This document shows, piece by piece, positions 39,103-52,323 of a stretch of 64,000 nt of DNA. Within the stretch, counting starts at the first letter, position 1; each line of letters starts with the position of its first letter. The notes beneath the pieces were generated by a model. It saw only the letters and a list, made by a program, of their open reading frames with translations. It had not been told where the DNA came from and searched no databases. A program made the translations under genes and the position numbers. Source of the DNA: Clostridiales bacterium CCNA10 (GTDB taxonomy: Bacteria > Bacillota > Clostridia > Oscillospirales > Oscillospiraceae); contig AP018533.1 of assembly GCA_003573975.1 (NCBI GenBank), positions 248,001 through 312,000 of the forward strand, given 5' to 3'.

Positions 39103-39305
39103 AGGTCATCCCTCTTTTTCAAGGCTTTAATTTCTCGGCGTTCGATTTTGTCAACGATACGGCCGCCTACCGCATGGAGTAGAAAAACGCTGCCCGCAAA
39201 TAGTAGCGCACCCCAGGCTCGCTGATTTTTGTTGTACTCTTTTACGCCGCCCTGCATAGTATAGACTTCATGCAAATGCTTGGCTGGGTTCACGTGTTTC
39301 TTCAT
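39096..39305 (-). CDS. Small membrane protein upstream of int
   Basis: This 69-residue protein has one hydrophobic segment (RAWGALLFAGSVFLLHAVGG) and a basic tail. A site AAAGGAG precedes ATG 39305. Its stop overlaps the integrase start. Its role is unknown. Confidence 0.65.
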   Translation of the reverse strand: MKKHVNPAKHLHEVYTMQGGVKEYNKNQRAWGALLFAGSVFLLHAVGGRIVDKIERREIKALKKRDDLC

Positions 39306-39356
39306 TGGGTGTCTCCTTTCGCAAGATTTACAGTGGGTTTTATGGAGGTGTTCTAT

Positions 39357-39557
39357 ATGAAATACATGACGAATGCACAAATCGACGAGCTTAATTTGCT
39401 TTTGGATAAGCATGGGGCGGCTTTGACAGCATTTTATAACGAAGGAATGAGACAAGGCGCCAAAAATGTGATCCATGGTATGATGATTGGCGCGGCGATT
39501 ATTGCTGGCGTTCAGATCACAAGGGCAATCATCAGAGCACACAAGCAAAAGAACTAA
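39357..39557 (+). CDS. Small helical protein (first cassette)
   Basis: This is a 66-residue protein (NAQIDELNLLLDKHG..., then a Gly/Ala-rich hydrophobic helix). TTTATGGAGGTG, the short form of the cassette motif, lies upstream and a terminator hairpin follows at 39566-39596. Its function is unknown. Confidence 0.65.
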   Translation: MKYMTNAQIDELNLLLDKHGAALTAFYNEGMRQGAKNVIHGMMIGAAIIAGVQITRAIIRAHKQKN

Positions 39558-39565
39558 ATAGGAAT

Positions 39566-39596
39566 TGGGGTCGCTTAATCAGCGGCTCCTTTTCTT
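39566..39596 (+). terminator. Cassette terminator
   Basis: GGGGTCGCT, TAATC and AGCGGCTCC form a hairpin with GU pairs, followed by TTTTCTTTTT. Confidence 0.6.
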
Positions 39597-39696
39597 TTTG
39601 CCCCTTGCGCCGCCCGCTCTAATCATATATGATAAGTGTACGAATTGTCAAGCATATTCCTACACAATATTTTTGATTAAGATTTGAGGGCTGGAT

Positions 39697-40023
39697 ATGG
39701 TGATGAACGAGTGCTCCGCCTGTCCCCGGTGCGGCGGACGGTTGAAATACTACGACAGCGTGCCCAGACTGGTACGGACGAAAGGGCGGCAAACCTCCAG
39801 AGTTCCCATGCGCCGCCTGCGGTGCTCCGGCTGCGGGGCAATCCACCGGGAACTGGGCGGTCTGTTCTTCCCCTACAAGCAGTACGAGGCCGAAGTGATA
39901 TTCGGCGTACTGGAGGGGCTTATCACCTGCGAGACACTGGGGTTCGAGGATTACCCCTGCGAGATGACCATGCTCCGGTGGCTTTCGCAGAAAGCACAGC
40001 TCCTATTATGGAGAAATCCATAA
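39697..40023 (+). CDS. DUF6431-like zinc-ribbon protein
   Basis: This 108-residue protein has CxxC pairs (CSACPRCGGRL, CSGCGAIHREL) and LEGLITCETLGFEDYPCEMT. It resembles a transposase-type zinc-ribbon/HTH head without a catalytic part. A copy of the cassette motif (39986-40014) lies inside its last codons. Confidence 0.75.
   Translation: MVMNECSACPRCGGRLKYYDSVPRLVRTKGRQTSRVPMRRLRCSGCGAIHRELGGLFFPYKQYEAEVIFGVLEGLITCETLGFEDYPCEMTMLRWLSQKAQLLLWRNP
39986..40014 (+). promoter_or_regulatory. Cassette motif copy 1
   Basis: CGCAGAAAGCACAG then CTCCTATTATGGAGA. It lies inside the DUF6431 gene end and ahead of the next cassette gene. Confidence 0.6.
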
Positions 40024-40042
40024 GCGAAAGGAGTAAATGAGC

Positions 40043-40279
40043 ATGAAACTGACACCTGTGGACCAGATACCGAAGATGAACGGCTATCACAAGCTGCAAG
40101 AGCTGATCGAGGAGTTTACGAACGGCGACGCTAAGATCGTAAAGGTGGAATTTAGCGAGACCGATTATAAATCCCCGGCGGTCTGCCGGTCTTGTCTGGC
40201 CGCGGCCATCAAGCGGTCGAAGCGTCCGGTCAAGGTATGGCGTCGTGGAAATGAGATATTCCTGAGCAGGGATGTTTGA
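40043..40279 (+). CDS. Small phage protein
   Basis: This 78-residue protein has a Cys pair (CRSCLAAAIKRSKR) and a basic C-terminal half, so it may bind nucleic acid. ATG 40043 is preferred, 9 nt after AAAGGAG. A terminator follows at 40289. Confidence 0.65.
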   Translation: MKLTPVDQIPKMNGYHKLQELIEEFTNGDAKIVKVEFSETDYKSPAVCRSCLAAAIKRSKRPVKVWRRGNEIFLSRDV

Positions 40280-40288
40280 CAAAGGATC

Positions 40289-40320
40289 GAGCCGCCGTAA
40301 CAGGCGGCTCTTTTCTTTTT
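40289..40320 (+). terminator. Cassette terminator
   Basis: GAGCCGCC, GTAACA and GGCGGCTC form an 8-bp stem, then TTTTCTTTTT. Confidence 0.8.
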
Positions 40321-40323
40321 CGG

Positions 40324-40353
40324 ACGCAGGAATTGCACAGCCCTTTATGGAGG
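40324..40353 (+). promoter_or_regulatory. Cassette motif copy 2
   Basis: ACGCAGGAATTGCACAG then CCCTTTATGGAGG, just before the ribosome-binding site of the next gene. Confidence 0.55.
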
Positions 40354-40361
40354 TGATTTCA

Positions 40362-40580
40362 ATGGACAAAATCAAAGCACTCAACACCAAAGTCATGGCA
40401 AAAGACTTCGGACGGGTAGGCTTGGGCACACTGGCCATTGCAGCCGGAGCATTTCTGTGGGGCAAGTTTTTGTACGGCAGAGGTGTGCGCGGCTGCCAAC
40501 GCTGGATGTGCGAGACGTTTCCGGACGAATACGAAAGCATGACGGAAAAGGTCGCTGATATGCTGGAACAGGACCATTGA
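40362..40580 (+). CDS. Small membrane protein
   Basis: This 72-residue protein has one hydrophobic segment (VGLGTLAIAAGAFLWGKFLYG) and a charged tail. GGAGGTGATTTCA precedes ATG. It forms its own motif-gene-terminator unit. No family recognised. Confidence 0.65.
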   Translation: MDKIKALNTKVMAKDFGRVGLGTLAIAAGAFLWGKFLYGRGVRGCQRWMCETFPDEYESMTEKVADMLEQDH

Positions 40581-40597
40581 GCAGGCCAAAACAGATT

Positions 40598-40626
40598 GAG
40601 ACGCTCTCGCGGCGGCTCTTTCTTTT
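40598..40626 (+). terminator. Cassette terminator
   Basis: GAGACGCTCTCGCGGCGGCTC can fold into a hairpin, followed by TTTCTTTT. Confidence 0.55.
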
Positions 40627-40690
40627 GTCTCCGGCGGTTATATTTCTAATTTAGATTAGCCCGGTTTAACCTAAGTTAGAAAACGGGCCC

Positions 40691-40720
40691 CGCAGATTTC
40701 GCAATTCCTATTATGGAAAG
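40691..40720 (+). promoter_or_regulatory. Cassette motif copy 3 (before structured RNA)
   Basis: CGCAGATTTCGCAAT then TCCTATTATGGAAAG. It abuts the closing stem of the RNA at 40717. Confidence 0.65.
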
Positions 40721-40850
40721 GAAACGGATAGATGCTGGTGGAAATCCAGCGGTGAGACACGAAGGCGTGCCGCCAAGTAATAACTTAATAAAAGATGGCA
40801 CCCACCGGGCAACGGTTTTCGTTGGGCCGACCCTGAAGTCGTTTCCTTTT
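40717..40850 (+). ncRNA. Structured RNA of unknown class
   Basis: AAAGGAAACG (40717-40726) pairs with CGTTTCCTTT (40840-40849) to close a domain of about 130 nt. Inside are GCTGG/CCAGC, GCGG/CCGC enclosing CAC/GTG, and CAACG/CGTTG hairpins. A U-rich run follows. It lies between two cassettes and directly behind a motif copy. It does not fit any riboswitch or RNA class I know. Confidence 0.55.
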
Positions 40851-40898
40851 CTTTTTTTTCGCGCCGATTCAACAGGGGCCTTTATGGAGGTGAAGGTT

Positions 40899-41087
40899 AT
40901 GGACACCAGGAAAATTCTTAGTGCGATCGGAACATTCGCGGTTGTGGGCGCGGTATCCACGGCAGGCGCGGCACTATGGACGAAGGTTCTGAACAGGAAG
41001 TTTCAAATGGTACAGCTCAAACTGACACACCCGAAGTCAGACAAAATTATATTCGTCGACTTCAAGAAGGCAAAGAGGGGCCGCTGA
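40899..41087 (+). CDS. Small membrane protein
   Basis: This 62-residue protein has an N-terminal hydrophobic helix (SAIGTFAVVGAVSTAGAALW) and a basic tail. TTTATGGAGGTGAAGGTT precedes ATG. ATTATATTC lies near its 3' end. Confidence 0.65.
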   Translation: MDTRKILSAIGTFAVVGAVSTAGAALWTKVLNRKFQMVQLKLTHPKSDKIIFVDFKKAKRGR

Positions 41088-41108
41088 CACAGCGGCTCTT
41101 CCCTTTTT
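41078..41108 (+). terminator. Cassette terminator
   Basis: GGGCCGCT, GACAC and AGCGGCTC form a hairpin followed by TTCCCTTTTTAT. Confidence 0.75.
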
Positions 41109-41166
41109 ATCCGCACAAAAGGCCGTCTCCTTTATGGGGACAAAACTTTTTAGGAGGTAATCAAGA

Positions 41167-41364
41167 ATGAACAAGCAGAAATGGACAGAGAAGCCGGTCA
41201 CCTGGGGCGGATATCTCAAACTCAGCGGCATTGTGACAGTCATCGGCGCGATTTTCAGCGCGGTGTATATCATTGCCATGTTTGAGCCGGCCTGGTGGAT
41301 CGGGATTCGGAAGACGGTTGGAAAGACGTTCAACCATTGGGCCCGGAAAAGGAATCGTTTCTAA
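41167..41364 (+). CDS. Small membrane protein
   Basis: This 65-residue protein has one transmembrane helix (GIVTVIGAIFSAVYIIAMF) and a strongly basic C-terminus. AGGAGGTAATCAAGA precedes ATG, and a terminator follows. Unknown function. Confidence 0.7.
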   Translation: MNKQKWTEKPVTWGGYLKLSGIVTVIGAIFSAVYIIAMFEPAWWIGIRKTVGKTFNHWARKRNRF

Positions 41365-41370
41365 AGGGCG

Positions 41371-41405
41371 GGAGCCGCTGTAACAGGCGGCTCCTTCTCT
41401 TTTTC
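41371..41405 (+). terminator. Cassette terminator
   Basis: GGAGCCGCTGTAACAGGCGGCTCC is a near-perfect hairpin, followed by TTCTCTTTTTC. Confidence 0.8.
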
Positions 41406-41477
41406 TTTCCACCGAGGTTGTTTTTACGAAAACGGGGCTGCGCCCTTAGAATAGCCGTTGAAAGGAGGCAGACGCCG

Positions 41478-41729
41478 ATGAATGAACAAGAGTTCCATCC
41501 GGGCTCCGTCCCTGTGGCGGTGGTGGCCCGTGTTTATGGAAAAGACGCGTCCTGGGTGAGGGCCGGAATTATCTCCGGCTGGCTGCCCATCGGCAAGGCG
41601 ACCCGGAACGGCAATCTGGTGGCCAGCATTGAGGAGATGGATTCCCGGTACGGCCGGATCAATTTCTACATCTCGCCAAAGCGATTGTACGAGGAAACCG
41701 GATATTTCTGGAGAGGAGAACGACGATGA
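41478..41729 (+). CDS. Putative DNA-binding protein
   Basis: This 83-residue protein has an HTH-like segment (VPVAVVARVYGKDASWVRAG, then IISGWLPIGKA), like excisionase-type or MerR-type domains. It follows AAAGGAGG. It overlaps the next gene by ATGA. It may regulate the small-gene cluster. Confidence 0.65.
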   Translation: MNEQEFHPGSVPVAVVARVYGKDASWVRAGIISGWLPIGKATRNGNLVASIEEMDSRYGRINFYISPKRLYEETGYFWRGERR

Positions 41730-42148
41730 GAAATGACATGCGTCCAGAGCTTTCGCAGAAGAACCCCTACTGGATCGGCAAGCACCGCTACTACGAGCTG
41801 AAGCATTTCTGCCTACAATACCCCATTTGGAAAAAGGCCCGACTGGCCCTGGATGGGCTGAGTAGGCGGCCGGCCGACCTCCAGGTCTTTGTGAGCTGCG
41901 GGCAGGTGAAGGGCGACCCAACAGAGCGGTGCGCCCAGTCCCGGATATTCTTCGGGGAGCGCATGGAGATGGTGGAGCAGGCGGCCATCGAGGCGGAGCC
42001 CGACCTCTACTCCTATCTGCTGCGGGGCGTGACCGAGGGGCTGTCCTACGATGCGCTGAAGATGAAGTATGATATTCCCTGCTGCCGGGACGTCTATTAC
42101 GCCGCGTACAGACGGTTCTTCTGGCTGCTGAGCAAGAGGAGGGATTGA
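41726..42148 (+). CDS. RinA/ArpU-like phage regulator
   Basis: This 140-residue protein ends in VTEGLSYDALKMKYDIPCCR, then YYAAYRRFFWLL, typical of RinA-like late transcription activators of Gram-positive phages. It is coupled to both neighbours by overlapping stop and start codons. Confidence 0.7.
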   Translation: MRNDMRPELSQKNPYWIGKHRYYELKHFCLQYPIWKKARLALDGLSRRPADLQVFVSCGQVKGDPTERCAQSRIFFGERMEMVEQAAIEAEPDLYSYLLRGVTEGLSYDALKMKYDIPCCRDVYYAAYRRFFWLLSKRRD

Positions 42149-42357
42149 AGTTGCGGGTTGTGGACGTGGCTGTCCGGCAATGCTACCGGTTCAACTGCCC
42201 GAACTGCGGGAGCAGGCTGGAGGCCGACTGCGGCGATCTGGTGGACATCGGCGGAAAGACAAGCCGGTTCTGGTGCCCGGTCTGCCGGAAGGAGCGGTAT
42301 GTTCCATGGAGTGCCCTAAGGAAACGGGTTGTGTACGAGGACAAGTCTGCGGAATAG
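42145..42357 (+). CDS. Zinc-ribbon protein
   Basis: This 70-residue protein has CPNCGSRLEADC and CPVCRKERY, a classical zinc ribbon. It starts at TTG overlapping the upstream stop. It is probably part of the same operon as the RinA-like gene. Confidence 0.7.
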   Translation: MKLRVVDVAVRQCYRFNCPNCGSRLEADCGDLVDIGGKTSRFWCPVCRKERYVPWSALRKRVVYEDKSAE

Positions 42358-42385
42358 GCAGGCTCCTTTATGGAGGCGAAATGCC

Positions 42386-42598
42386 ATGAAGAAAACGATT
42401 TTGGAAAAGGTGGCGGACAACAAGTTCAATGCTGTGAAACAGTTAGTCCGATTCATTCGGGAAAATGACAAGAACCCGGGTGGATTTGAAGACTTATGGG
42501 AAAACAGTTTTGCGCTTGAGGACGAATTAGATGAAATCATACTTCGGATAGCGCACATCATCGAATTGGAAAAAGCATTAGAAGAATACGAAGAGTAA
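42386..42598 (+). CDS. Small acidic helical protein
   Basis: This is a 70-residue acidic protein (ILEKVADNKFNAVKQLVRFI). CTTTATGGAGGCGAAATGCC lies upstream. A terminator follows. No family recognised. Confidence 0.65.
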   Translation: MKKTILEKVADNKFNAVKQLVRFIRENDKNPGGFEDLWENSFALEDELDEIILRIAHIIELEKALEEYEE

Positions 42599-42603
42599 GG
42601 ATT

Positions 42604-42636
42604 GGGCCTGCGGAAACGCGGGCTCTTTCCTTTTTG
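42604..42636 (+). terminator. Cassette terminator
   Basis: GGGCCTGCG, GAAA and CGCGGGCTC form a hairpin, then TTTCCTTTTT. Confidence 0.75.
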
Positions 42637-42641
42637 TATTT

Positions 42642-42670
42642 CGCAGAAACGGCAGCGGCTATTATGGAGG
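42642..42670 (+). promoter_or_regulatory. Cassette motif copy 4
   Basis: CGCAGAAACGGCAG then CGGCTATTATGGAGG, between a terminator and the next small gene. Confidence 0.6.
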
Positions 42671-42680
42671 TGATACCATT

Positions 42681-42854
42681 ATGACTTACAAGCAAATCGA
42701 GGCAAGCCGGGAGCTGAGGCTTTGGATCGGGCAGGTGATCGTGCCCGCCGTTACGATGGCGGTCGCATTGGCGTCCATTCCGGAGGTTAGGAACGCGGCT
42801 TCCACAAAGCTGGAACAGCTGAAATGGAAACTCAAATCCAGGAGCAAGGGCTGA
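42681..42854 (+). CDS. Small membrane protein (57 aa)
   Basis: This is a 57-residue protein (MTYKQIEASRELRLWIGQVI...) with one hydrophobic helix (IVPAVTMAVALASIP) and a basic tail. GGAGGTGATACCATT precedes ATG. It is a complete motif-gene-terminator unit. Confidence 0.6.
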   Translation: MTYKQIEASRELRLWIGQVIVPAVTMAVALASIPEVRNAASTKLEQLKWKLKSRSKG

Positions 42855-42867
42855 GCAGGCCCTTTGC
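42845..42867 (+). terminator. Cassette terminator
   Basis: CAAGGG and CCCTTTG flank CTGAGCAGG, followed by a U-rich stretch. Confidence 0.55.
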
Positions 42868-42972
42868 TTTCTATTTTCCATACGCAGCCGGCCGGAAAGC
42901 GTGTTAGAGTGATATCCTGAAAAATTCCCGGGTGAAAAATTTAAGAAAACAGCGTCAAAGGAGGAATTGAAT

Positions 42973-43194
42973 TTGGAGATTATTGCGGCGATTGCGGCGC
43001 TTTGCATCGGAATTTTGATCGGTATGTGTCTGTTCCAGGATCGTCCGGTCGGCGACCTGCGGGTGGACCATTCCGATTTCGCGGACGAAGGCCCTCATTT
43101 ATATCTTGAGCTGGATACGGATATACGGGCCGTTATGCGGAAGAAACGGGTGGTCTTCCGGGTCAAGGTGGAGGACTTCCTGCCGCACGAATAA
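42973..43194 (+). CDS. Membrane-anchored small protein
   Basis: This 73-residue protein has an N-terminal anchor (MEIIAAIAALCIGILIGMCL) and a soluble tail of about 45 residues with charged and beta-like character. TTG 42973 is 8 nt after AAAGGAGG; a TTG two codons upstream is possible. Confidence 0.65.
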   Translation: MEIIAAIAALCIGILIGMCLFQDRPVGDLRVDHSDFADEGPHLYLELDTDIRAVMRKKRVVFRVKVEDFLPHE

Positions 43195-43243
43195 CATCGG
43201 CTATTATGAAGCCAATTCTGATTTTTGAAAGGAGAAAAAGCAT

Positions 43244-43684
43244 ATGGCAGAGATCAAAACGTTGTTGGATGATGTGATCGAGACGGAGCTCGCGAATCTG
43301 CGGACCCTTCCATCCGGAAACGAGGAGAGAGCGAAAGCGATCCGGGATCTGGCGGCGCTGCACAAGCTGCGTATCGAGGAGATCAGGGCCCAGGCCGACG
43401 TGGATGAGAAGTCCGAGCGGCGGGAGATGGACGGCAGACAGCGCAGGGAGGAGCTTGCCTGCAAGGATGCCGACCGCGCCCGTGAGGAGGAGCTTCAGAA
43501 CCGTCAGCTTCGGGAGCAGAAGATCGACCGGTATGTGCGCATTGCGGTGGCCGGCGCGGAACTGGTGTTGCCGCTGATGTTCTACGGCATCTGGATGAGA
43601 CGGGGATTCAAGTTTGAGGAGTCCGGGGTTTACTCGTCCACCACGTTCAGGAATCTGTTCAGCCGTTTTCGGCCGACAAAGTAA
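43244..43684 (+). CDS. Coiled-coil membrane phage protein
   Basis: This is a 146-residue protein. A long charged coiled coil (residues about 1-95) precedes a transmembrane helix (IAVAGAELVLPLMFYGIWM). GAAAGGAG lies upstream. Similar proteins occur in gut Firmicute phages to my recollection. Its function is unknown. Confidence 0.7.
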   Translation: MAEIKTLLDDVIETELANLRTLPSGNEERAKAIRDLAALHKLRIEEIRAQADVDEKSERREMDGRQRREELACKDADRAREEELQNRQLREQKIDRYVRIAVAGAELVLPLMFYGIWMRRGFKFEESGVYSSTTFRNLFSRFRPTK

Positions 43685-43805
43685 CGAACAGGCTCGAAAA
43701 GAAAATGAAGAGGCCGTGCAGACAGCACAGTCTCTTCGTTTTATCCGCGAGTTATTCGGGGCGTTTTATGGAGAACACCCGATATTTTCAAGGAGGTATC
43801 TGTTT

Positions 43806-43997
43806 ATGAAATGGACGGAAGAAGAAAAGCGCCAATTCATTCTGAGGGTCGACATTGGCCGAGCACGCCGCTTATACGACGAAGGGAAAAACGCAGAGGA
43901 GATTGCGGCGGTTGTGAGGCGGCCTGTCGCGCTGATGGAAAAGTGGATTAGGAACTTCAAAATCATTGACCAAAAGAGACAGGCAAGAAACGGGTGA
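43806..43997 (+). CDS. Small HTH-like protein
   Basis: This 63-residue basic protein contains YDEGKNAEEIAAVVRRPVAL, like the first two helices of a sigma-4 or homeodomain-type HTH. CAAGGAGGTATCTGTTT precedes ATG. It may be a regulator. Confidence 0.65.
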   Translation: MKWTEEEKRQFILRVDIGRARRLYDEGKNAEEIAAVVRRPVALMEKWIRNFKIIDQKRQARNG

Positions 43998-44002
43998 ACC
44001 CC

Positions 44003-44038
44003 AAAAAGCAGGGCCCCAGACAAGGGCTCTTGCTTTTT
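44003..44038. terminator. Bidirectional terminator between convergent genes
   Basis: AAAAAGCAGGGCCC and GGGCTCTTGCTTTTT form a long stem. It serves the HTH gene on the left and the minus-strand gene on the right. Confidence 0.75.
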
Positions 44039-44243
44039 AATCCGGGTCCCAACCGGAGCCCATGTCTTTGATTTGGTCTTCTCCTGTCCCCCAACTGGCG
44101 CTGATGTCGGGAAGAGCGCAATCATAGCAAACATTGGCGTCTGGGTATTGATCGTCGTAAACACCCTTATAATATTCTCGACTGAGCTTTCGTCTCACGG
44201 CGGCAACATCAAACTCTTTGCCGCATTCTATACAAACAGCCAT
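44037..44243 (-). CDS. Cys-rich small protein, reversed orientation
   Basis: This 68-residue protein has CIECGKEF and CYDCALP, a probable zinc site. GGAGGGGCGAAT precedes ATG 44243. It is the only leftward gene right of the integrase module, so it may be a separate acquisition. Confidence 0.7.
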   Translation of the reverse strand: MAVCIECGKEFDVAAVRRKLSREYYKGVYDDQYPDANVCYDCALPDISASWGTGEDQIKDMGSGWDPD

Positions 44244-44385
44244 ATTCGCCCCTCCATACATAAAGGATGTCTCCATTTTACCATAGTCCTCGCCAAATTT
44301 ACAAGGCGTTTTATGAGGAGAGAGCGCTCTTTACCTCAATATCAGCCGGAGCCGCAAGGCCCGGACGACTTAGGAGGTAATGCAA

Positions 44386-44469
44386 ATGCGTAAGAAGGGT
44401 AAAAAAGGTCATTCGGCCGGCAGGAGACGAACTGATGGACTACCTGAACCGGGGGTTCGCGATCTGTAA
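44386..44469 (+). CDS. 27-aa basic peptide ORF
   Basis: ATG follows AGGAGGTAATGCAA. It encodes MRKKGKKGHSAGRRRTDG... and overlaps the next gene out of frame by 35 bp. It may be a real peptide or a leader controlling the downstream gene. Confidence 0.45.
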   Translation: MRKKGKKGHSAGRRRTDGLPEPGVRDL

Positions 44470-44722
44470 CCGGTGCGGGGCGGTGATGGACCAGAGAGAA
44501 GACCCAAGAGGAGGTTGTGATATTTACGCCTGCCCGTCCTGCGGATGGGAGATTGACGAGATGGAGTACGAGTATGAGAGCGGAGATCCGATGGAGCTCG
44601 TACAGGATGAAAGAGGCGACGACTACCTGGTCTTCCGGAACGACATGCCGCCCGCCGGGTGCAGAGCGTGCGGAGGCCCATACCCCTACTGCAAGCCGTC
44701 GTGCAGAATGTTCGACGACTAA
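44435..44722 (+). CDS. Zinc-ribbon protein
   Basis: This 95-residue acidic protein has three Cys clusters (CNRCGAVMD, CPSCGWEID, CRACGGPYPYC). AGGAG lies 8 nt before ATG. It overlaps the basic peptide ORF. Unknown function. Confidence 0.7.
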   Translation: MDYLNRGFAICNRCGAVMDQREDPRGGCDIYACPSCGWEIDEMEYEYESGDPMELVQDERGDDYLVFRNDMPPAGCRACGGPYPYCKPSCRMFDD

Positions 44723-44741
44723 GCATGACCAACGTAGAGGA

Positions 44742-44772
44742 GGAGCCCTGTAACAGGGGCTTTTCCTCTTTT
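44742..44772 (+). terminator. Cassette terminator
   Basis: GAGCCCTGTAACAGGGGCTTTTCC hairpin followed by TCTTTTAT. Confidence 0.75.
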
Positions 44773-44786
44773 ATATTTTTGATAGG

Positions 44787-44815
44787 CGCAGAAATGGCAG
44801 AGTGTATTATGAGAA
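44787..44815 (+). promoter_or_regulatory. Cassette motif copy 5
   Basis: CGCAGAAATGGCAGAG then TGTATTATGAGAA, downstream of a terminator and a TTATATTT. Confidence 0.55.
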
Positions 44816-44838
44816 ACTATTTTGAGGAGGAACCAGTC

Positions 44839-45048
44839 ATGGATATTACGAAAAAAGTAGCGGCGTTGAGGTTCAAATACCACGCAAACATGCTTGACGT
44901 CTGTAATGTGCTGAACCAAATCGGCATTTTGAAGGACGAAAAAGCAGAATCGGTGATGAAAAATCATACGATGCAGTGCTTTGATTGTTTGGAACGATTA
45001 GGTTATCCCATCGAAAAATTTCTGAAAGAGCAAGAGAAGGAGTCCTGA
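44839..45048 (+). CDS. Small helical protein
   Basis: This 69-residue protein (MDITKKVAALRFKYHANMLD) follows GAGGAGGAACCAGTC. It has its own upstream motif copy and a following terminator. No family recognised. Confidence 0.65.
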   Translation: MDITKKVAALRFKYHANMLDVCNVLNQIGILKDEKAESVMKNHTMQCFDCLERLGYPIEKFLKEQEKES

Positions 45049-45066
45049 TCGGGGCTCTTTCTTTTA
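45038..45066 (+). terminator. Cassette terminator
   Basis: GGAGTCCTGATCGGGGCTC hairpin followed by TTTCTTTTAT. Confidence 0.6.
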
Positions 45067-45081
45067 TATTTGGAGGCAGAC

Positions 45082-45441
45082 ATGCGCTATCACTACGAGA
45101 AGCCGCCCATTTATCTTTCCATGTACGGACAGCGCTACTGCTGCGACCATCCGGTCTATAACCACTGCACCCTGTTCCTTGTCGGCGAACGGGGCCTGGC
45201 GGTGATTCAGCAGCGGTACGACCCGGAGACGAAGCACACCTTCTGGGCCGAGGTAGACGAGTGGCTGACGGACCCATTATATCTGCACCCCCGGTTTCGG
45301 GCGTTCTTTGACCGCCGGGCCGGGACGGGTACGGACGGCCTCTACCCCACCGTGACCATCCGGCAGATCATGTGGGCGCTGAAGATGAAGCCCCTGCCCA
45401 AGCAGCCCTGGGAGACGGTCTTCGACCATACGCCGATTTGA
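45082..45441 (+). CDS. Conserved phage protein
   Basis: This 119-residue soluble protein has many aromatic residues (YHYEKPPIYLSMYGQRYCCD, HTFWAEVDEWLTD). GGAGG lies 5 nt before ATG. The type is familiar from Firmicute phages, but I know no function. Confidence 0.7.
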   Translation: MRYHYEKPPIYLSMYGQRYCCDHPVYNHCTLFLVGERGLAVIQQRYDPETKHTFWAEVDEWLTDPLYLHPRFRAFFDRRAGTGTDGLYPTVTIRQIMWALKMKPLPKQPWETVFDHTPI

Positions 45442-45489
45442 CAACCTCCTTTATGAGAAACCAACTGATTTTGAAAGGGGTTGCGGTTT

Positions 45490-45639
45490 ATGAAAACATT
45501 CAAGAACAAGCTGTACGCTGTGGGGCTGATGCTCTGCGGAAGTGTTCCGACATTCCTGGAGCAGGACGCCACGGCGCTGGTATTTATCGGGATGATTGCA
45601 GTTCCGCTGTTCTTTGCAAAAGAAAACTGGATTTATTAA
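45490..45639 (+). CDS. Small membrane protein (49 aa)
   Basis: MKTFKNKLYAVGLMLCGSVP leads into a second hydrophobic stretch (ATALVFIGMIAVPLFFA), so two helices are possible. GAAAGGGG precedes. CTCCTTTATGAGAA, a short motif form, lies at 45446, and a terminator follows. Confidence 0.6.
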   Translation: MKTFKNKLYAVGLMLCGSVPTFLEQDATALVFIGMIAVPLFFAKENWIY

Positions 45640-45646
45640 AGGGAAC

Positions 45647-45671
45647 GGCCCGGACAAGGGCTTTTCCTTTT
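45647..45671 (+). terminator. Cassette terminator
   Basis: GGCCCGGACAAGGGCTTTTCC hairpin with a U-rich tail. Confidence 0.6.
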
Positions 45672-45687
45672 ATATTTGCGCTTATTT

Positions 45688-45708
45688 CGCAGCTCCTATT
45701 ACGGAGAA
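45688..45708 (+). promoter_or_regulatory. Cassette motif copy 6 (short form)
   Basis: CGCAGCTCCTATTACGGAGA, lacking the middle part of the upstream arm. Confidence 0.5.
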
Positions 45709-45736
45709 CGATGCTCGTAAAAGGAGGTAAAGGAGC

Positions 45737-45952
45737 ATGGACGAAATGAGACTGGAATCGAAATTTACAACAGGACTTGTATCAAAAATCGCAAGGACCG
45801 TTGTGCGTAAGAAGCTGGGCTACGATATGGATATTCGGCTCAACCGGCTGCGGACAACGGTGGTTGATGAAAAGACACACGTACATCTGGACGTCGATCT
45901 GGAGCTCACGAAGGAAGAGCTTGACAAATTATTGAAGAGCATCGGGCTCTGA
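45737..45952 (+). CDS. Small conserved phage protein
   Basis: This is a 71-residue protein (FTTGLVSKIARTVVRKKLGY..., DLELTKEELDKLLKSIG). AAGGAGGTAAAGGAGC precedes ATG. The pattern of a basic amphipathic helix plus beta region is known from phage genomes, with unknown function. Confidence 0.65.
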   Translation: MDEMRLESKFTTGLVSKIARTVVRKKLGYDMDIRLNRLRTTVVDEKTHVHLDVDLELTKEELDKLLKSIGL

Positions 45953-45953
45953 G

Positions 45954-45979
45954 GCAAAGGCCCCATAACAGGGGCTTTG
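45954..45979 (+). terminator. Cassette terminator
   Basis: CAAAGGCCCC, ATAACA and GGGGCTTTG form a 9- to 10-bp stem, then TCTTTC. Confidence 0.75.
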
Positions 45980-45988
45980 TCTTTCTTC

Positions 45989-46019
45989 CGCAGATTCCGC
46001 AGGTTCTATTGTGGAGAGG
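45989..46019 (+). promoter_or_regulatory. Cassette motif copy 7 (before structured RNA)
   Basis: CGCAGATTCCGCAGG then TTCTATTGTGGAGAGG. Confidence 0.6.
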
Positions 46020-46084
46020 CATACAGCGAGCTACGAAGCGAGGGTGGTAGTAGGCAACGCAAGACGGAAACCCACCTGCCTCTC
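46014..46084 (+). ncRNA. Small structured RNA, unknown class
   Basis: GAGAGGCA (46014-46021) pairs with TGCCTCTC (46077-46084), with an internal GGTGG/CCACC helix. The length (71 nt) and closed ends recall a tRNA, but no T-arm or anticodon arm fits. It sits between a motif copy and the tRNA locus. Confidence 0.45.
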
Positions 46085-46093
46085 TTAGGTTTT

Positions 46094-46123
46094 CGCAGAT
46101 TTTGCAATTCCTATTATGGAGAG
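46094..46123 (+). promoter_or_regulatory. Cassette motif copy 8 (before tRNA)
   Basis: CGCAGATTTTGCAAT then TCCTATTATGGAGAG. TATTAT (46112-46117) ends 4 nt before the tRNA 5' end. Confidence 0.65.
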
Positions 46124-46192
46124 GAAGTTAGCTCAGTGGTAGAGCGCAGGCTGAAATGCCTGAGGCCGCCGGTTCGAGTCCGGCACTTTCTC
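46122..46192 (+). tRNA. tRNA-like gene, anticodon GAA (Phe) with 6-nt loop
   Basis: The acceptor AGGAAGT pairs with ACTTTCT (one GU). The D-arm GCTC AGTGGTA GAGC and T-arm GCCGG TTCGAGT CCGGC are standard, with a 5-nt variable loop. The anticodon arm is one base short: CAGGC TGAAAT GCCTG. Either a 6-nt loop or a 4-bp stem with an 8-nt loop results; both place GAA after U33. CCA is not encoded. Confidence 0.75.
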
Positions 46193-46240
46193 TTTCGCTT
46201 TTGCATGGAGAAAAAAAACAAGTTTGGAAAGGAGTTTACC

Positions 46241-46804
46241 ATGGAGAAACGGCCGCTGGACACGGAGCTTGAAGTTCTTTGGAGCGAGCACCTCGAAGAC
46301 GATGTGTTCTCAGTACGCGCTTACAATGTTCTGGCGCATCGTCTCGGTCTTCGCACGTTAGGGGATATTTTGAATTTGACCCGCGACGACATTGCAAAGG
46401 CGAGGGGCGCTGGGGAAAAGACCCTGGACGACATTGCGAAGCTGGTTCGGTCGTGCGGATACGAACTGAACGGATTTACGGACGCCGGTCCGGACTGCAA
46501 AAAGTGCAAACAGAGGGATTTCCTGCGGCCGGCGCATCAGCACTTTTTCAAATTGGCAAGGGAGTTCAACCGCTTGTATCATCATCCCAAGGACCGCGCC
46601 TTTGTGTTTCCAAACCGGATTTCCGGAGAGACGGGCTGGGATATTGTAAAGCGGGCCATATTCGCCACCTATAACGTGTCGAGCATTGCCTCTCTGCCAG
46701 ACGGGGAGCAGGCGAAAATCAATGAATTTGCGATGGGTCTCACGGATATTCTGTTCCAACAGCTGCGGGACCGGGCAAAAGAATACAAACGGAGCAATAT
46801 TTGA
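46241..46804 (+). CDS. RNA polymerase alpha-CTD-like protein
   Basis: This is a 187-residue protein. Residues about 20-80 (FSVRAYNVLAHRLGLRTLGD..., AKARGAGEKTLDDIAKLVRS) match the helix-hairpin-helix C-terminal domain of RpoA. A Cys pair (CKKCKQRD) and a helical domain follow. No alpha N-terminal domain is present. GGAAAGGAG precedes ATG. It may bind promoter DNA or sigma/activator surfaces to redirect host RNA polymerase (inference). Confidence 0.8.
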   Translation: MEKRPLDTELEVLWSEHLEDDVFSVRAYNVLAHRLGLRTLGDILNLTRDDIAKARGAGEKTLDDIAKLVRSCGYELNGFTDAGPDCKKCKQRDFLRPAHQHFFKLAREFNRLYHHPKDRAFVFPNRISGETGWDIVKRAIFATYNVSSIASLPDGEQAKINEFAMGLTDILFQQLRDRAKEYKRSNI

Positions 46805-46819
46805 AAGGAGAAAATGAGC

Positions 46820-47278
46820 ATGGAAGTTAAAATTGTGGGCGAGATCAAGTTCAAGACCTGTACCCTCCCGGTGTATCGGGATTTGGACGAGCCCCTGTTC
46901 AAGGCGGGGGACGTCGCTGAGCTGATGGACTATGGGCCGAACAATATTTGGAACCTGACCAACCTTTGCGAAGAGGACGAGAGGCTGGTGCTGTCATCGG
47001 AAGTGGCGGGTCAACACCGGCGGGTGACGTTCCTCACCGAGAGCGGACTCTACAACGTCCTCGCCCAGAGTCGGAAGCCGGTTGCCAGGGCGTGGCGGCG
47101 GGTCATTGCCGAGGAGCTGATTGCCCTGCGGCGGTCCCGTGGCAAAAATATCTCGGAGCAGTTCGAGGACTGGGACCACATGGCGGACACCATCTACTTT
47201 GACGAGGTGACCGGGCGGCTGATGCGGTCGGTGACCGTTCCCGGCGGGGACGTGGAGCAGGTCCCCTACGAGCCCTGA
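46820..47278 (+). CDS. BRO-N family antirepressor-like protein
   Basis: This is a 152-residue protein with a BRO-N domain (FKAGDVAELMDYGPNNIWNL, VTFLTESGLYNVLAQSRKP). Such proteins often act as phage antirepressors. AAAGGAG lies 9 nt before ATG 46820. Confidence 0.85.
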   Translation: MEVKIVGEIKFKTCTLPVYRDLDEPLFKAGDVAELMDYGPNNIWNLTNLCEEDERLVLSSEVAGQHRRVTFLTESGLYNVLAQSRKPVARAWRRVIAEELIALRRSRGKNISEQFEDWDHMADTIYFDEVTGRLMRSVTVPGGDVEQVPYEP

Positions 47279-47282
47279 CGCC

Positions 47283-47594
47283 ATGAAAGCGGAAATTGGA
47301 TACCCCGATGTGGTCATGGGGGATTTTATACAGGACCTTATCGGCGACATCGAGCATAACATGCGGCTTGCTCCGCCCAACGACCAGTATTTCGAGGAGC
47401 TCAGCATTCAGAAATTTACCCTGCAACAGCTGCTCCGGGAGATTGGCAGGCATGAAGGAGACTCTCCCACCGCCGTAGTAGCGAGATTTGTGGAGAGGAT
47501 GTCTGCCACAGCAAAAGAGGACGACCCACGGTTCGTCTTTTCTATCTCCAGGGACGCGGCCCAGTCCATCCTGGACGGATTATATTTTGACTAA
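47283..47594 (+). CDS. Conserved phage protein
   Basis: This 103-residue acidic, helical protein is encoded 4 bp after the BRO-N gene. The second half (DSPTAVVARFVERMS) is amphipathic. TTATATTTT lies at the 3' end. Function unknown. Confidence 0.65.
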   Translation: MKAEIGYPDVVMGDFIQDLIGDIEHNMRLAPPNDQYFEELSIQKFTLQQLLREIGRHEGDSPTAVVARFVERMSATAKEDDPRFVFSISRDAAQSILDGLYFD

Positions 47595-47611
47595 ACGGAA
47601 AAGGAGAAACA

Positions 47612-48076
47612 ATGACTGGAGAAGTTTACATTCATTATGGCGCGGACGCCTTCGACCCGAGCCATGGGTTTCCGGTGGTAAACACGAAATACTCCTGGGC
47701 AAAGCCCCACGGAGGTCTATGGGCATCGAGAAAACGTGCGTCCTACGGCTGGGCCAAATGGTGCGAGGAGAATTCCTTTCGGGATTGCGCCGCAGAACCC
47801 TCATTTCAGTTTATCATGCGAAATCCGGAAAAAGTAGCGGTCATTCATAATTTGAACGATCTGCGACAGCTTCCGATGGTGAGAGACGTTCCGCCCGGCA
47901 TGTGGGAGGAAATTGACTTTGTGGAATGTCTGCGGCGAGGAATTGACGCTGTTGAACTCTGCTGGTATGGGGAGGAATACCAAGACCAGCGGGCCGATGA
48001 TTTATATCTCGCTTTGTATGGGTGGGACTGTGACTCCATTGTGGTCCTCAATCCCGACGCAGTGATTCAGATTTAA
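47612..48076 (+). CDS. Conserved protein, possibly ART-like
   Basis: This 154-residue protein has HYGADAFDPSHGFPVV, KPHGGLWASRKRASYGWAKW and a conserved end (YGWDCDSIVVLNPDAV). The HYG...GGLW.S pattern faintly recalls ADP-ribosyltransferase folds, which would be a host-takeover enzyme. The family is not firmly recognised. AAAAGGAG precedes ATG. Confidence 0.6.
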   Translation: MTGEVYIHYGADAFDPSHGFPVVNTKYSWAKPHGGLWASRKRASYGWAKWCEENSFRDCAAEPSFQFIMRNPEKVAVIHNLNDLRQLPMVRDVPPGMWEEIDFVECLRRGIDAVELCWYGEEYQDQRADDLYLALYGWDCDSIVVLNPDAVIQI

Positions 48077-48097
48077 CACTCGAAAGGAGAAAACATC

Positions 48098-48670
48098 ATG
48101 GCTAAGACCTATCTTGATATTCTGAGCGAGCGCGGCGTCCGCCCCTTCCTGACCGACGAGGCTTTTGAGGAGCTCCAGAAGTTTGACTACAAGAGCCAGT
48201 ACGCCATTCCCGGCCAGGTAATGCCGGTCTTCAAGCACCCCAACCAGCACAAGATTGAGCTGGGCAAGACCACCAATCTGATCGGAGATATGTGCTGGTA
48301 CGGAGCCAGCGTGGAGGAGGTGGTACGGGCCATCCAGTACGGCATGGTGGCGCTCGATGCGGACAAGCGCCATTTGGACTGGAAGAAGGCCGCTGAGGAC
48401 TTCGGTATTCAGGAGCTTCTCAAGAAATACCGCCGGTTCCGCCGCAAGCCCAAGCTGACAGAGCGGGAAAAGCTGGTCATTACCGCTTATACCGGCTATG
48501 TTCTGGAGGGTACGGCCGGAAAGGTAGTGGATTTCGTGGAACAGGAGCTGGGTCATTCCATTCAGACGCCGGAGCCGCCCGCAGTCCCGGTTGTTGTGGA
48601 GGTGCGCCGGGCTTTGCAGGAGGAGTTCTGCGAGATCTGCCGGAAGCACCACATCTTTGATTATATTTAA
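48098..48670 (+). CDS. Conserved phage protein
   Basis: This is a 190-residue protein with no recognised domain. GAAAGGAGAAAACATC precedes ATG. It has an Arg/Lys-rich helix (KKYRRFRRKPK) and a CEICRKHH end that could bind metal. It lies just ahead of the first DUF6353 gene. Confidence 0.65.
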   Translation: MAKTYLDILSERGVRPFLTDEAFEELQKFDYKSQYAIPGQVMPVFKHPNQHKIELGKTTNLIGDMCWYGASVEEVVRAIQYGMVALDADKRHLDWKKAAEDFGIQELLKKYRRFRRKPKLTEREKLVITAYTGYVLEGTAGKVVDFVEQELGHSIQTPEPPAVPVVVEVRRALQEEFCEICRKHHIFDYI

Positions 48671-48683
48671 GGAGGATACGGAC

Positions 48684-49514
48684 GTGAACGCAAAAACGAC
48701 CCTGCTCCACGGAGCCGAGAAAGCGGTCAAAAAGGCGGCGCCGACGATATTGACCGTTGTCAGCGCGGCGGGGGTGGTGGCCACGGCGGCTCTGGCGGTC
48801 AGGGCCACACCCAAGGCCCTCAAGCGCATTGAGGCGGCAAAAGCGGTCAAAAAGGCGGAAAATGGCGGAAATTTGACCCGAATGGAGACGATAGGAGCCT
48901 GCTGGCAATGCTATGTACCGGCGGCGGCCACGGGAATCGCTGTAATCGGGTGTATTTTCGGAGCAAATGCCCTCAACCGGCGTCAGCAGGCGGCTCTGGT
49001 CAGCGCCTACGCCCTGGTCAGCCGGTCCTACAACGATTACCAGCGCAAGGTCAAGGAGCTCCACGGCATAGACGCCCACCGGGGGATCATGGAAGCCTTG
49101 GCCGCCGAAAAGAGCAAAAAGCAGCCCATCTACGCGGGCACCCTGATCGGGTCATCCTCTCTGGACTTTGAGGACGCCGGCGAGGAGGAGCGGCTGTTCT
49201 ACGACGCCATCTCGGAGCGGTATTTTCAGGCTACCATCAGCCAGGTGCTCCAGGCCGAATACCACCTCAACCGGAACTTTGCCCTGGGCGGAGGTTTCAT
49301 CACCCTGAACCAGTTTTACGAGTTCCTAGGTATCGAGCCGGTGCCCGGCGGGGACGAGGTGGGCTGGATGGTTTCGGACGGGCTCTACTGGGTGGACTTT
49401 GACCACCAAAAGACCGTGGTGGACGACGGGCTCAACGGCGAGGTGGAATGCTACATCATCGACGCGCCCTTCCCGCCGGTAAGCGAGCGTGAATACGAGG
49501 ACATGGAGCTCTGA
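48684..49514 (+). CDS. DUF6353 family protein, paralogue 1
   Basis: This is a 276-residue protein starting at GTG after AAGGAGG. It has a hydrophobic segment with ATPKALKRIEAAK, a second helix (YVPAAATGIAVIGCIFGANA), then a soluble C-terminal domain. It has two paralogues in this window. It is probably membrane-associated. Function unknown. Confidence 0.8.
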   Translation: MNAKTTLLHGAEKAVKKAAPTILTVVSAAGVVATAALAVRATPKALKRIEAAKAVKKAENGGNLTRMETIGACWQCYVPAAATGIAVIGCIFGANALNRRQQAALVSAYALVSRSYNDYQRKVKELHGIDAHRGIMEALAAEKSKKQPIYAGTLIGSSSLDFEDAGEEERLFYDAISERYFQATISQVLQAEYHLNRNFALGGGFITLNQFYEFLGIEPVPGGDEVGWMVSDGLYWVDFDHQKTVVDDGLNGEVECYIIDAPFPPVSEREYEDMEL

Positions 49515-49520
49515 GGGCTC

Positions 49521-49550
49521 CGCAGAAATTGCATCTCCTATTATGGAGAA
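49521..49550 (+). promoter_or_regulatory. Cassette motif copy 9
   Basis: CGCAGAAATTGCAT then CTCCTATTATGGAGAA. It is identical over its whole length to the copy at 50893-50922. Confidence 0.7.
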
Positions 49551-49577
49551 TCTATATTTAACAGGAGGTTTGACTTT

Positions 49578-49754
49578 ATGGACTCGAAAACGATATTTAA
49601 GGTGTTGTCCTTTGTAGGTATGGCCCTGGGCGGGATCGGCACACTGCTGTCCGCCTGGGCTGACGGAAGGGAGCAGGACGCGATTATCGAGGAGAAGGTA
49701 AATGAAGCACTGGCCGCCCGTGAACATGGAGAAAAGGAAAGCGAGGAGCCCTGA
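49578..49754 (+). CDS. Small membrane protein (58 aa)
   Basis: It starts after ACAGGAGGTTTGACTTT. One hydrophobic helix (VLSFVGMALGGIGTLLSAWA) and an acidic tail. It has an upstream motif copy and a terminator at its end. Confidence 0.65.
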   Translation: MDSKTIFKVLSFVGMALGGIGTLLSAWADGREQDAIIEEKVNEALAAREHGEKESEEP

Positions 49755-49772
49755 CCGGGGCTCTTTGCTTTT
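49745..49772 (+). terminator. Cassette terminator
   Basis: AGGAGCCCTGACCGGGGCTC hairpin then TTTGCTTTT. Confidence 0.7.
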
Positions 49773-49788
49773 GCAGGAGCCGCTGTCC

Positions 49789-50091
49789 ATGAACGAACAG
49801 GCGATCCTCTTTCTCATGGAGGTCCTGAACGGCTTTGAGGAGCCGCCAAGGTCCGACTGGCCCAGGCACGAGGCGGAGGAAGTCTGCTTTTCCCGCTGGG
49901 CGGTGGAGGAGCTGCTGCAACAGGTCTGGGACCACCCGTGGACACTGGCCTCTGAGACGGTAGAGCGTTTCGCCGCGAAGCTGGGGCTATACGCCGAGAC
50001 CTGCGTCACGGACCAGCAGCACCGGATCTTTCGGATCGCGGCCGAAACCGTGAGGGGATTCCTCGATGAGATCGAGAAGCTGGAGCGATGA
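49789..50091 (+). CDS. Conserved phage protein
   Basis: This 100-residue acidic helical protein (MNEQAILFLMEVLNGFEEPP) starts 9 nt after AGGAG. It ends overlapping an ATG of the next gene. Unknown function. Confidence 0.65.
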   Translation: MNEQAILFLMEVLNGFEEPPRSDWPRHEAEEVCFSRWAVEELLQQVWDHPWTLASETVERFAAKLGLYAETCVTDQQHRIFRIAAETVRGFLDEIEKLER

Positions 50092-50123
50092 AAACATTGA
50101 TATTTATGAGAGGAGATGGCGTC

Positions 50124-50888
50124 TTGAACAAACAAGCAATTTCAAACGCCCTGAAAGCGTTGCAGAAAACCGTGAAAAAGCACAGCCCGGAGATTTTGAC
50201 GGGCATCGGCATCGCCGGGATGACCGCCGCCGCTGTGATGGCGGTCAAGGCCACCCCCAAGGCCCTGCGGATGGTGGACGAAAAGGAAATCCGGGACGGA
50301 AAGCGCCTGACCACCGGCGAGATCGTCAAGACCACCTGGAAATGTTATATTCCCCCGGTCGTCACCGGCGTATGCTCCGCGGCCTGCATCATCGGGGCCA
50401 GTTCCATCAGCGCACGGCGCAACGCGGCCCTGGTCACAGCCTACACCATTTCGGAGACCGCGTTGAAGGAGTACCGGGACAAGGCGGTTGAGGTGGTCGG
50501 CGTGAAGAAGGAGCAGGCCATCCGGGACGCGGTGGCCAAGGACAAGCTGGAGAAGGCCAATGTCAAAGAGCGGGAATTCATTTCCACCGGACGGGGCGAG
50601 ACCCCCTGCTTCGACCCGCTGACCAACACCTGCTTCAAGTCGGACATCGAGAGCCTCCGCCGGGCGGAAAATACGCTGAACAAGCGGATGCGGGACGAGG
50701 TGAAGATCACCGTCAATGAGTTTCTGATGGAAATTGGCCTGGAGCCCTGCGACGACTCTATCGGAGAGACCATGGGGTGGGACATCGACAAGGGCTACAT
50801 CGAGCTGGACTTCAGCTCCCAGCTGGTGGACGGCGTCCCTTATCTGGTGCTGGGGCACCGGGTCCCGCCGGTCTATCTGGGCTGGTGA
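50124..50888 (+). CDS. DUF6353 family protein, paralogue 2
   Basis: This is a 254-residue protein with VKATPKALRMVDEKE and the second helix CYIPPVVTGVCSAACIIGAS, like its two paralogues. TTG 50124 is preferred, 8-9 nt after AGAGGAG; ATG 50088 is the alternative. The last third contains FSSQLVDGVPYLVLGHRVPP. Confidence 0.8.
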   Translation: MNKQAISNALKALQKTVKKHSPEILTGIGIAGMTAAAVMAVKATPKALRMVDEKEIRDGKRLTTGEIVKTTWKCYIPPVVTGVCSAACIIGASSISARRNAALVTAYTISETALKEYRDKAVEVVGVKKEQAIRDAVAKDKLEKANVKEREFISTGRGETPCFDPLTNTCFKSDIESLRRAENTLNKRMRDEVKITVNEFLMEIGLEPCDDSIGETMGWDIDKGYIELDFSSQLVDGVPYLVLGHRVPPVYLGW

Positions 50889-50892
50889 CATC

Positions 50893-50922
50893 CGCAGAAA
50901 TTGCATCTCCTATTATGGAGAA
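50893..50922 (+). promoter_or_regulatory. Cassette motif copy 10
   Basis: CGCAGAAATTGCAT then CTCCTATTATGGAGAA, the same as 49521-49550. Confidence 0.7.
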
Positions 50923-50960
50923 CCATCCAATGAACCTAACTTTACAAGGAGGAACTTGAC

Positions 50961-51248: not shown

Positions 51249-51264
51249 GCAGAAGAGAGGTTCG

Positions 51265-51306
51265 CCGGGGGAGAGTACCTGTTTCAGGTGCTTTCCCTTT
51301 TTTGCT
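51265..51306 (+). terminator. Terminator
   Basis: GGGAGAGTACCT and AGGTGCTTTCCC form an imperfect long stem, followed by TTTTTTGCTTTT. Confidence 0.75.
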
Positions 51307-51328
51307 TTTGAAAGGAGAAAATTGCATC

Positions 51329-52308: not shown

Positions 52309-52323
52309 AAGGAGGCGGACGCC

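Follow-up and report, generated by a model that had tools for sequence, protein, structure and literature searches.

The window analysed here is a 64,000-nucleotide stretch of the 3.56-Mb genome of Clostridiales bacterium CCNA10 (C1:248001-312000), and it contains part of a prophage in which one short motif stands before a succession of single small genes and RNA genes. Having compared this array with those of other phages, we regard the motif as very probably the promoter of the phage's own RNA polymerase, a single-chain 906-aa protein with the signature DFDGD that is predicted to be a two-barrel enzyme, is probably carried in the virion and would transcribe the early genes from these sites. 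The reasoning, which is drawn from sequence, is that similar motifs occur in distantly related phages with the same polymerase; the motif is therefore most likely that polymerase's own promoter. A sequence-only reading of the array had listed a dedicated promoter, recognised with a phage factor, among its options, and this option is now well supported, the factor probably being a whole RNA polymerase.

An unsupervised, model-free search of positions 39200-52500 returned one motif of about 28 bp in 18 copies, all on the + strand (Table 1), with a leave-one-out score of 267.4 (first-order shuffle, 3.0); the figure given by this search for the reverse strand is the same motif read backwards and is no control. 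The array described by the sequence-only reading is thus real, and the copies at 49521 and 50893 are, as it had stated, identical, over the 28-bp motif and the next two bases. At up to three mismatches the core CTCCTATTATGGAG matches 17 times in the window (100 shuffles: mean 4.45, maximum 11). With at most one mismatch, GCANNTCCTATTATGGAG occurs seven times genome-wide, every time inside this prophage; with two or three it is also found outside, for a genome total of 28 versus 10 for the backward-read pattern. A further good copy lies past the window end, at window-frame position 68937. Fifteen of the 18 copies are followed by a reading frame with a Shine-Dalgarno sequence, including one 29-aa frame (copy at 44291), and the remaining three precede RNA genes, the frame at 46136 inside the tRNA-like RNA having been set aside in this assignment. 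Terminator-like sites number 28 over both strands, 19 of them on the + strand (shuffles, 12.6 +/- 3.5). Nine + strand hairpins have at least seven pairs by our own count, and the claim of a hairpin terminator at the end of most units is thereby about half borne out. A nucleotide search of the array against a phage collection gave no match.

The same architecture recurs well beyond this prophage. We compared nine polymerase-bearing phages, namely, the window phage, Faecalibacterium phage FP_oengus, Lactococcus phages P092 and 1706, Bifidobacterium phage BitterVaud1, Arthrobacter phage Circum, Streptomyces phage HotFries, Gordonia phage Petito and Rhodococcus phage ReqiPoco6, which together span Bacillota and Actinomycetota. 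Within small-gene regions picked from the annotation, the model-free search found an array of one shared design in all nine (scores of 124.6 to 282.2, versus -4.0 to 19.9 for shuffles): an upstream box ending (A)CA, five bases, a TATAAT-like hexamer and then mostly G. Aligned on the hexamer, the copies are conserved from 18-19 nt upstream to about 9 nt downstream, with little beyond upstream; this alignment includes a deviating HotFries copy at 22708, which was left out of the matrix described below and was found again by it. The box starts with CGC in seven of the nine phages, and in every one of the nine consensus lines the positions 7 and 6 nt before the hexamer are most often CA, once a one-base shift in BitterVaud1 is corrected. 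No conserved column appears at 16-18 nt from the hexamer, where a -35 element would lie, so that the lack of a conserved -35 noticed in the window holds across the nine-phage alignment. Conservation of the motif in related phages, which had been proposed as a check, was thus found. In the Streptomyces, Gordonia and Rhodococcus phages (L084, L095, L097), conservation continues into the leader (GAGACCCCTAYGAAAGGA), which possibly marks a shared leader element.

Metagenomic records extend the association between motif and polymerase. The pan-phage pattern CGCGNAAANTACANNNNNTATAATG was found in 73 IMG/VR stretches on 66 contigs, and the same pattern with a spacer of seven or three bases instead of five was found in none (0 and 0 stretches). 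A narrower, window-type pattern gave a single IMG/VR stretch, on a contig without a polymerase match. When the 66 contigs and this one were searched together with the polymerase profile, 45 of the 67 encoded the polymerase (34/50 plus 11/17), as did 33 of the 35 that are at least 40 kb long. The design of the pattern took Circum and its relatives into account, and the contig sample is accordingly not blind to the Circum/Mudcat group. Motif and polymerase share a strand in 45 of 45 contigs as judged by eye, on the assumption that fetched loci keep the orientation of their contig. Among the nine IMG/VR relatives from which stretches were fetched, seven show 8 to 25 copies (G001, 24; G002, 25; G003, 22; G005, 8; G006, 12; G008, 10; G011, 9); the stretches of G012 and G014 hold coding repeats only, probably because they lie in structural genes.

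Per-phage matrices, applied at 12 bits to eight whole genomes, gave 86 forward hits and no reverse hit. By location, 73 of these belong to the small-gene array and 11 to the replication region; 2, in Circum and ReqiPoco6, sit on the left boundary that we drew for the array, and the polymerase module has none. This distribution fits a role in early and middle genes, and the structural genes must presumably be served by something other than the motif. The site of initiation is suggested by the shortest leaders. Counted from the hexamer's first base, 27 of 112 units (six genomes, with many homologous units among them) have a Shine-Dalgarno sequence that begins at 6-10 nt and a start codon at 18-23 nt. 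The remaining 85, in which the leader is longer, an RNA gene follows or our criteria recognise no frame, have no bearing on the start site. Sigma-70 promoters start RNA some distance past the -10 element; were RNA to start at that usual distance, the Shine-Dalgarno sequence of the 27 short-leader units would therefore lie outside the transcript. The RNA genes begin directly after TATTAT or TATTGT, much as had been noticed at the outset, and in the predicted folds of the structured RNAs the bases after the hexamer form the 5' strand of the terminal helix. We infer that RNA is initiated directly after the hexamer. The conservation of TATTAT is upheld by these data; leaders in part of the units put the start right behind it, unlike that of a sigma-70 -10 element.

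The candidate polymerase is encoded past the window end (Table 1). Profile phrog_4291, which its database names "RNA-dependent RNA polymerase," matches the 906-aa protein over its full length (E 0). The protein contains SGADFDGD, helix-turn-helix (HTH)-like segments near both ends and HYGVKRRSGRYPWGSG near its N-terminus, and DFDGD, its DxDxD metal-binding motif, is invariant in 20/20 and 25/25 aligned relatives. Relatives occur in 251 phage records; among the matches listed, most actinophage records carry the annotation HTH DNA-binding protein and nothing more. When a model of the protein was submitted to Foldseek, 49 of the 50 matches listed were RNA polymerase subunits or RDR2, with low TM-scores (TM, template modelling). 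The profile also meets, weakly and around its active site, frames of 987-1032 aa (L184, L185, L187, L188) in 4 of 60 other genomes of the same genus; both of the two that were read contain GADYDGD, and such frames may be chromosomal YonO-like polymerases. A search of the genome with PF00940, for a T7-type polymerase, gave no match, and the control genomes gave none either. A 190-aa gene beside the array (48098-48667) resembles about 95 polymerase residues just after DFDGD. One other such piece was seen, L158 (contig G066:12923-13216), which contains a stop; FP_oengus gp20 was considered as a relative of the 190-aa gene and rejected.

Carriage of the polymerase in the virion is most likely, to judge indirectly from its homologues and its N-terminus. 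In the ReqiPoco6 record the homologue is annotated as a structural protein by similarity to the gp75 structural protein of Lactococcus phage 1706. Polymerase N-termini bear HYG-type peptides, altered forms of a sequence found (HYGVKGMKWG and variants of it) in head-region proteins of several of these phages, possibly a virion-loading tag; a literature search for HYGVKGMKWG found no paper.

Taken together, these features suggest a simple scheme. The polymerase would recognise a single, rigidly spaced promoter composed of the upstream box and the TATTAT adjoining it; needing no sigma factor, it would open the DNA at TATTAT and begin RNA at the purine that follows immediately. It would most likely travel in the virion and enter with the DNA, and the array would therefore be readable straight away. 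Small early genes and structured or tRNA-like RNAs would then each form a separate transcript, every one with a promoter, and often a terminator, of its own.

Several observations weigh against this assignment. The matrices were trained on most of the sites that they recover, and 14 of the 86 hits lie outside the training sets. In place of the CGC part of the box, P092 has TTTA and 1706 a degenerate sequence, and the hexamer resembles a sigma-A -10 element. With three mismatches allowed, the window-type pattern matches 11 of 17 polymerase-bearing records and is absent from 6, with a modest excess over the backward control in G004 (5/3), G005 (6/3), G009 (6/3) and G010 (2/1). Two motif contigs of at least 40 kb, G034 and G071, have no polymerase match, and G041, counted among the 33, has only a 31-bit piece. 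Seventeen of the 47 FP_oengus proteins tested are present in all nine phages; co-occurrence alone therefore cannot single out the polymerase, and it is predicted function that does so. One of the proteins matched in all nine is gp56 (phrog_4303, annotated without a function), which follows immediately on the polymerase in both FP_oengus and the window phage and could be a polymerase partner. The structure model is modest (predicted TM-score, 0.48), Foldseek returned no match reaching E 0.001 (best E, 4.1e-3), and a sequence search of solved structures found helical and HTH proteins, with no polymerase ranked above them. Finally, an insert of about 24 kb with conjugation-type genes separates array and polymerase in this prophage. 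In relatives L018, L019 and L035, sequence from both flanks of this insert lies within one locus, and array and polymerase therefore belong to one phage group.

Could the host enzyme read the motif instead? The host's RNA polymerase, guided by its main sigma factor, might use TATTAT or TATAAT as a -10 element, the place of the -35 being taken by a conserved phage activator on the upstream box. The hexamer is near the sigma-A consensus in most of the phages, one hexamer type serves hosts of different phyla, and a comparable motif of phage Vardy was taken as a sigma-70 promoter (PMC9671010, in the passages available). We nonetheless consider this explanation unlikely. The usual start distance would cut the ribosome-binding site off the 27 short-leader units, no -35 is conserved and no motif copy coincides with a sigma-70-type match; the FP_oengus hexamer, moreover, is CTTTAT, and no activator was recognisable among the 17 common proteins, scanned in part, except for the HTH segments of the polymerase itself. 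That a phage-encoded sigma factor steers the host polymerase to the motif seems very improbable. Microbacterium phages of clusters EC and EI do combine repeated intergenic motifs with a sigma factor gene (PMC7302621, as far as the available text goes), but sigma-70 region 2 (PF04542) found no match across C1:285870-398452 in a search that covered, of the nine phages, the window phage and whose control genomes were positive.

The two further options of the sequence-only reading fare worse, and we give each of them next to no credence. A recombination site for swapping one-gene cassettes would suit the gain, loss and duplication of units between relatives and the near-identical units repeated within G002. 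A site of this kind is difficult to reconcile with an orientation fixed to the downstream gene (18 of 18 copies in the window, in addition to the one-sided matrix hits in the relatives), with a position fixed relative to the RNA start and with rigid spacing within the motif. Cassette order had been suggested as a check, and in five related genomes the shared units stand largely in common order; collinearity is thus upheld in the main, with insertions, losses, duplications and some displaced units, in a comparison whose unit clustering may merge paralogues. An RNA-processing site inside longer transcripts would account for RNA units that start within a few bases of the hexamer. Against it stand terminator-like hairpins before several copies, and conservation that reaches 18-19 nt upstream with rigid spacing, so that the upstream half of the motif precedes the inferred start. 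The CTCC/GGAG dyad, which could have marked such a site, lacks conservation: by eye, CTCC directly precedes the hexamer in 4 of the 18 copies only and the dyad is therefore no general feature.

The array has a second, unexplained product. Among its RNA genes is one that had been read as a tRNA. A tRNA body is indeed present; an ordinary tRNA it is not, since ARAGORN leaves it undetermined and its anticodon loop is abnormal. Its acceptor helix runs on into both ends of the transcript, the 5' start as well as the U-rich 3' end. When 16 genomes or stretches were searched with a D-arm/T-loop pattern, ten copies were found in nine of them, each directly after a promoter, G001 and G003 being identical among these sources; the RNAs thus occur in phages of both Bacillota and Actinomycetota. 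An alignment of nine sequences shows almost no variation in the D arm and T loop, and anticodon arms of differing length. ARAGORN called five of the ten undetermined, missed three and assigned a normal anticodon to the other two, Phe(aaa) for G002 and Ala(agc) for ReqiPoco6. Rfam recognised both copies from P092 as tRNA, with scores of 39.2 and 43.8 bits. By eye, none encodes CCA. The transcript start pairs with the U-rich end in most predicted folds; those of G001, G002, G003 and G011 keep this terminal helix and lose the cloverleaf. As a guess, these RNAs might serve to decoy host proteins that bind or cut tRNA. Among the matches listed by a literature search for phage tRNA mimics was a pseudo-tRNA in the chromosome of Bacillus cereus (PMC3399842, known to us from excerpts). 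The two structured RNAs of the window had no Rfam match at the gathering score. A further structured RNA, with an end-to-end helix, lies directly after a promoter in P092 (27858-27945).

The prophage runs rightwards from its integrase through the small genes, three DUF6353 proteins, the DNA polymerase and a helicase, and past the window it continues with the RNA polymerase and head-tail genes. A mobile element with conjugation-type genes (window-frame about 72000-97000; L001, L002) has apparently been inserted in it. Another element, on the - strand at 1-31000, precedes the prophage and has recombinase, topoisomerase-like and mobilisation-like genes, as judged from reading-frame starts only.

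Table 1. Coordinates of the features discussed, with probable promoters listed as promoter copies (window frame unless a prefix is given)
Feature	Position	Strand	Remark
Promoter copy 1	39320..39347	+	before 66-aa gene at 39357
Promoter copy 2	39986..40013	+	before 80-aa gene at 40037
Promoter copy 3	40325..40352	+	before 72-aa gene at 40362
Promoter copy 4	40691..40718	+	before structured RNA 1
Promoter copy 5	40862..40889	+	before 62-aa gene at 40899
Promoter copy 6	41112..41139	+	before 65-aa gene at 41167
Promoter copy 7	42348..42375	+	before 70-aa gene at 42386
Promoter copy 8	42642..42669	+	before 57-aa gene at 42681
Promoter copy 9	43184..43211	+	before 146-aa gene at 43244; 5' bases overlap end of preceding frame 42967-43194
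Promoter copy 10	43746..43773	+	before 63-aa gene at 43806
Promoter copy 11	44291..44318	+	weak case: followed by 29-aa frame at 44380 only
Promoter copy 12	44787..44814	+	before 69-aa gene at 44839
Promoter copy 13	45431..45458	+	before 49-aa gene at 45490
Promoter copy 14	45679..45706	+	before 71-aa gene at 45737
Promoter copy 15	45989..46016	+	before structured RNA 2
Promoter copy 16	46094..46121	+	before tRNA-like RNA
Promoter copy 17	49521..49548	+	before 58-aa gene at 49578
Promoter copy 18	50893..50920	+	before 95-aa frame at 50961
Structured RNA 1	40715..40855	+	first bases pair with U-rich 3' end, predicted 13-bp terminal helix
Structured RNA 2	46013..46086	+	closed by predicted 9-bp terminal helix
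tRNA-like RNA	46118..46199	+	tRNA body, abnormal anticodon loop, no encoded CCA
Other tRNA-like RNA	L082:2934-3010
Other tRNA-like RNAs	L085:23605-23688, 23993-24076
Other tRNA-like RNA	L097:3693-3783
Other tRNA-like RNA	L098:11339-11424
Other tRNA-like RNA	L099:10804-10892
Other tRNA-like RNA	L101:11755-11836
Other tRNA-like RNA	L106:3226-3312	-
Tyrosine integrase with zinc ribbon	37870..39102	-	adjoins array, as in FP_oengus
Phage DNA polymerase (phrog_4210)	56237..60385	+	small-gene region ends here in this phage group
RNA polymerase, 906 aa	C1:351561-354278 (window-frame 103561-106278)		outside window; phrog_4291 profile
gp56 / phrog_4303	L083:1391-1660; L003:2300-2563
HYGVKGMKWG-type head-region proteins	L003:4570-5151; L003:5163-6047		others in further phages; altered form in polymerase

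If the assignment is true, it gives a promoter to a polymerase family of 251 phage records and explains how transcription in these phages can start independently of the host enzyme; being compact, such a promoter-polymerase pair, taken from phages that infect Gram-positive bacteria, is also a possible tool. A broader generalisation, to which we would give slightly less than even chances, is that phages of Bacillota and Actinomycetota have kept a sigma-independent pair of this kind, in which a virion-injected two-barrel enzyme and a promoter made of box, five bases, TATAAT-like hexamer and a start directly after it would run early one-gene units, possible tRNA-decoy RNAs included.

Phage polymerases with promoters of their own are known; it is the link between this promoter and this polymerase that is new within the literature searched, where no report connecting the two was found, most subscription journals lying outside the coverage. 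T7-type promoters are compact, with a melting box and then a purine start, and serve many short units. The window motif resembles them in being compact, in presumably placing its melting box directly before a purine start and in heading many short units, but the fold of T7 polymerase (PF00940) differs from that predicted for the window polymerase. Carriers of the phi14:2 type are podoviruses of Bacteroidota, unlike the carriers here, which are tape-measure-bearing phages of Bacillota and Actinomycetota. The virion RNA polymerase of the crAss-like phage phi14:2 itself, gp66, is a two-barrel enzyme (named in PMC10770324, of which, as of the papers that follow, parts were available).

Thermus phage P23-45 offers the closer parallel. 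It has a virion RNA polymerase, gp96, fused to the tape measure protein, and a nonvirion enzyme, gp64, and its relatives without the virion polymerase also lack its motif (PMC10770324). The two systems share a phage-encoded single-chain polymerase with DxDxD (two-barrel in the P23-45 enzymes and putatively so in ours) and dedicated promoter motifs before early genes. They differ in that P23-45 has two polymerases and one was found here, which is a separate 906-aa protein without a tape measure fusion, and in the motif itself, which in our case consists of an upstream box and a TATAAT-like hexamer. For Gordonia phage Vardy (cluster DJ), a 50-bp motif with TATAAT was described in five intergenic copies in the middle region, and it is not linked there, in the passages available, to a phage polymerase (PMC9671010). 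Petito, of the same cluster, has both this polymerase and this motif, and DJ records name the polymerase an HTH protein. In the available passages of an Arthrobacter phage survey, the words motif, promoter and RNA polymerase do not occur (PMC5513430). YonO, of the Bacillus subtilis prophage SPbeta, is likewise a single-chain phage RNA polymerase related to the multisubunit enzymes; it transcribes late genes, with one mapped start and, in the sections available, its promoter sequence left open (PMC5467207). Unlike YonO, the window phage presents many probable promoters, before small early-region genes, and its motif brings the question left open for YonO within reach of a test that needs a single purified protein and a short piece of DNA.

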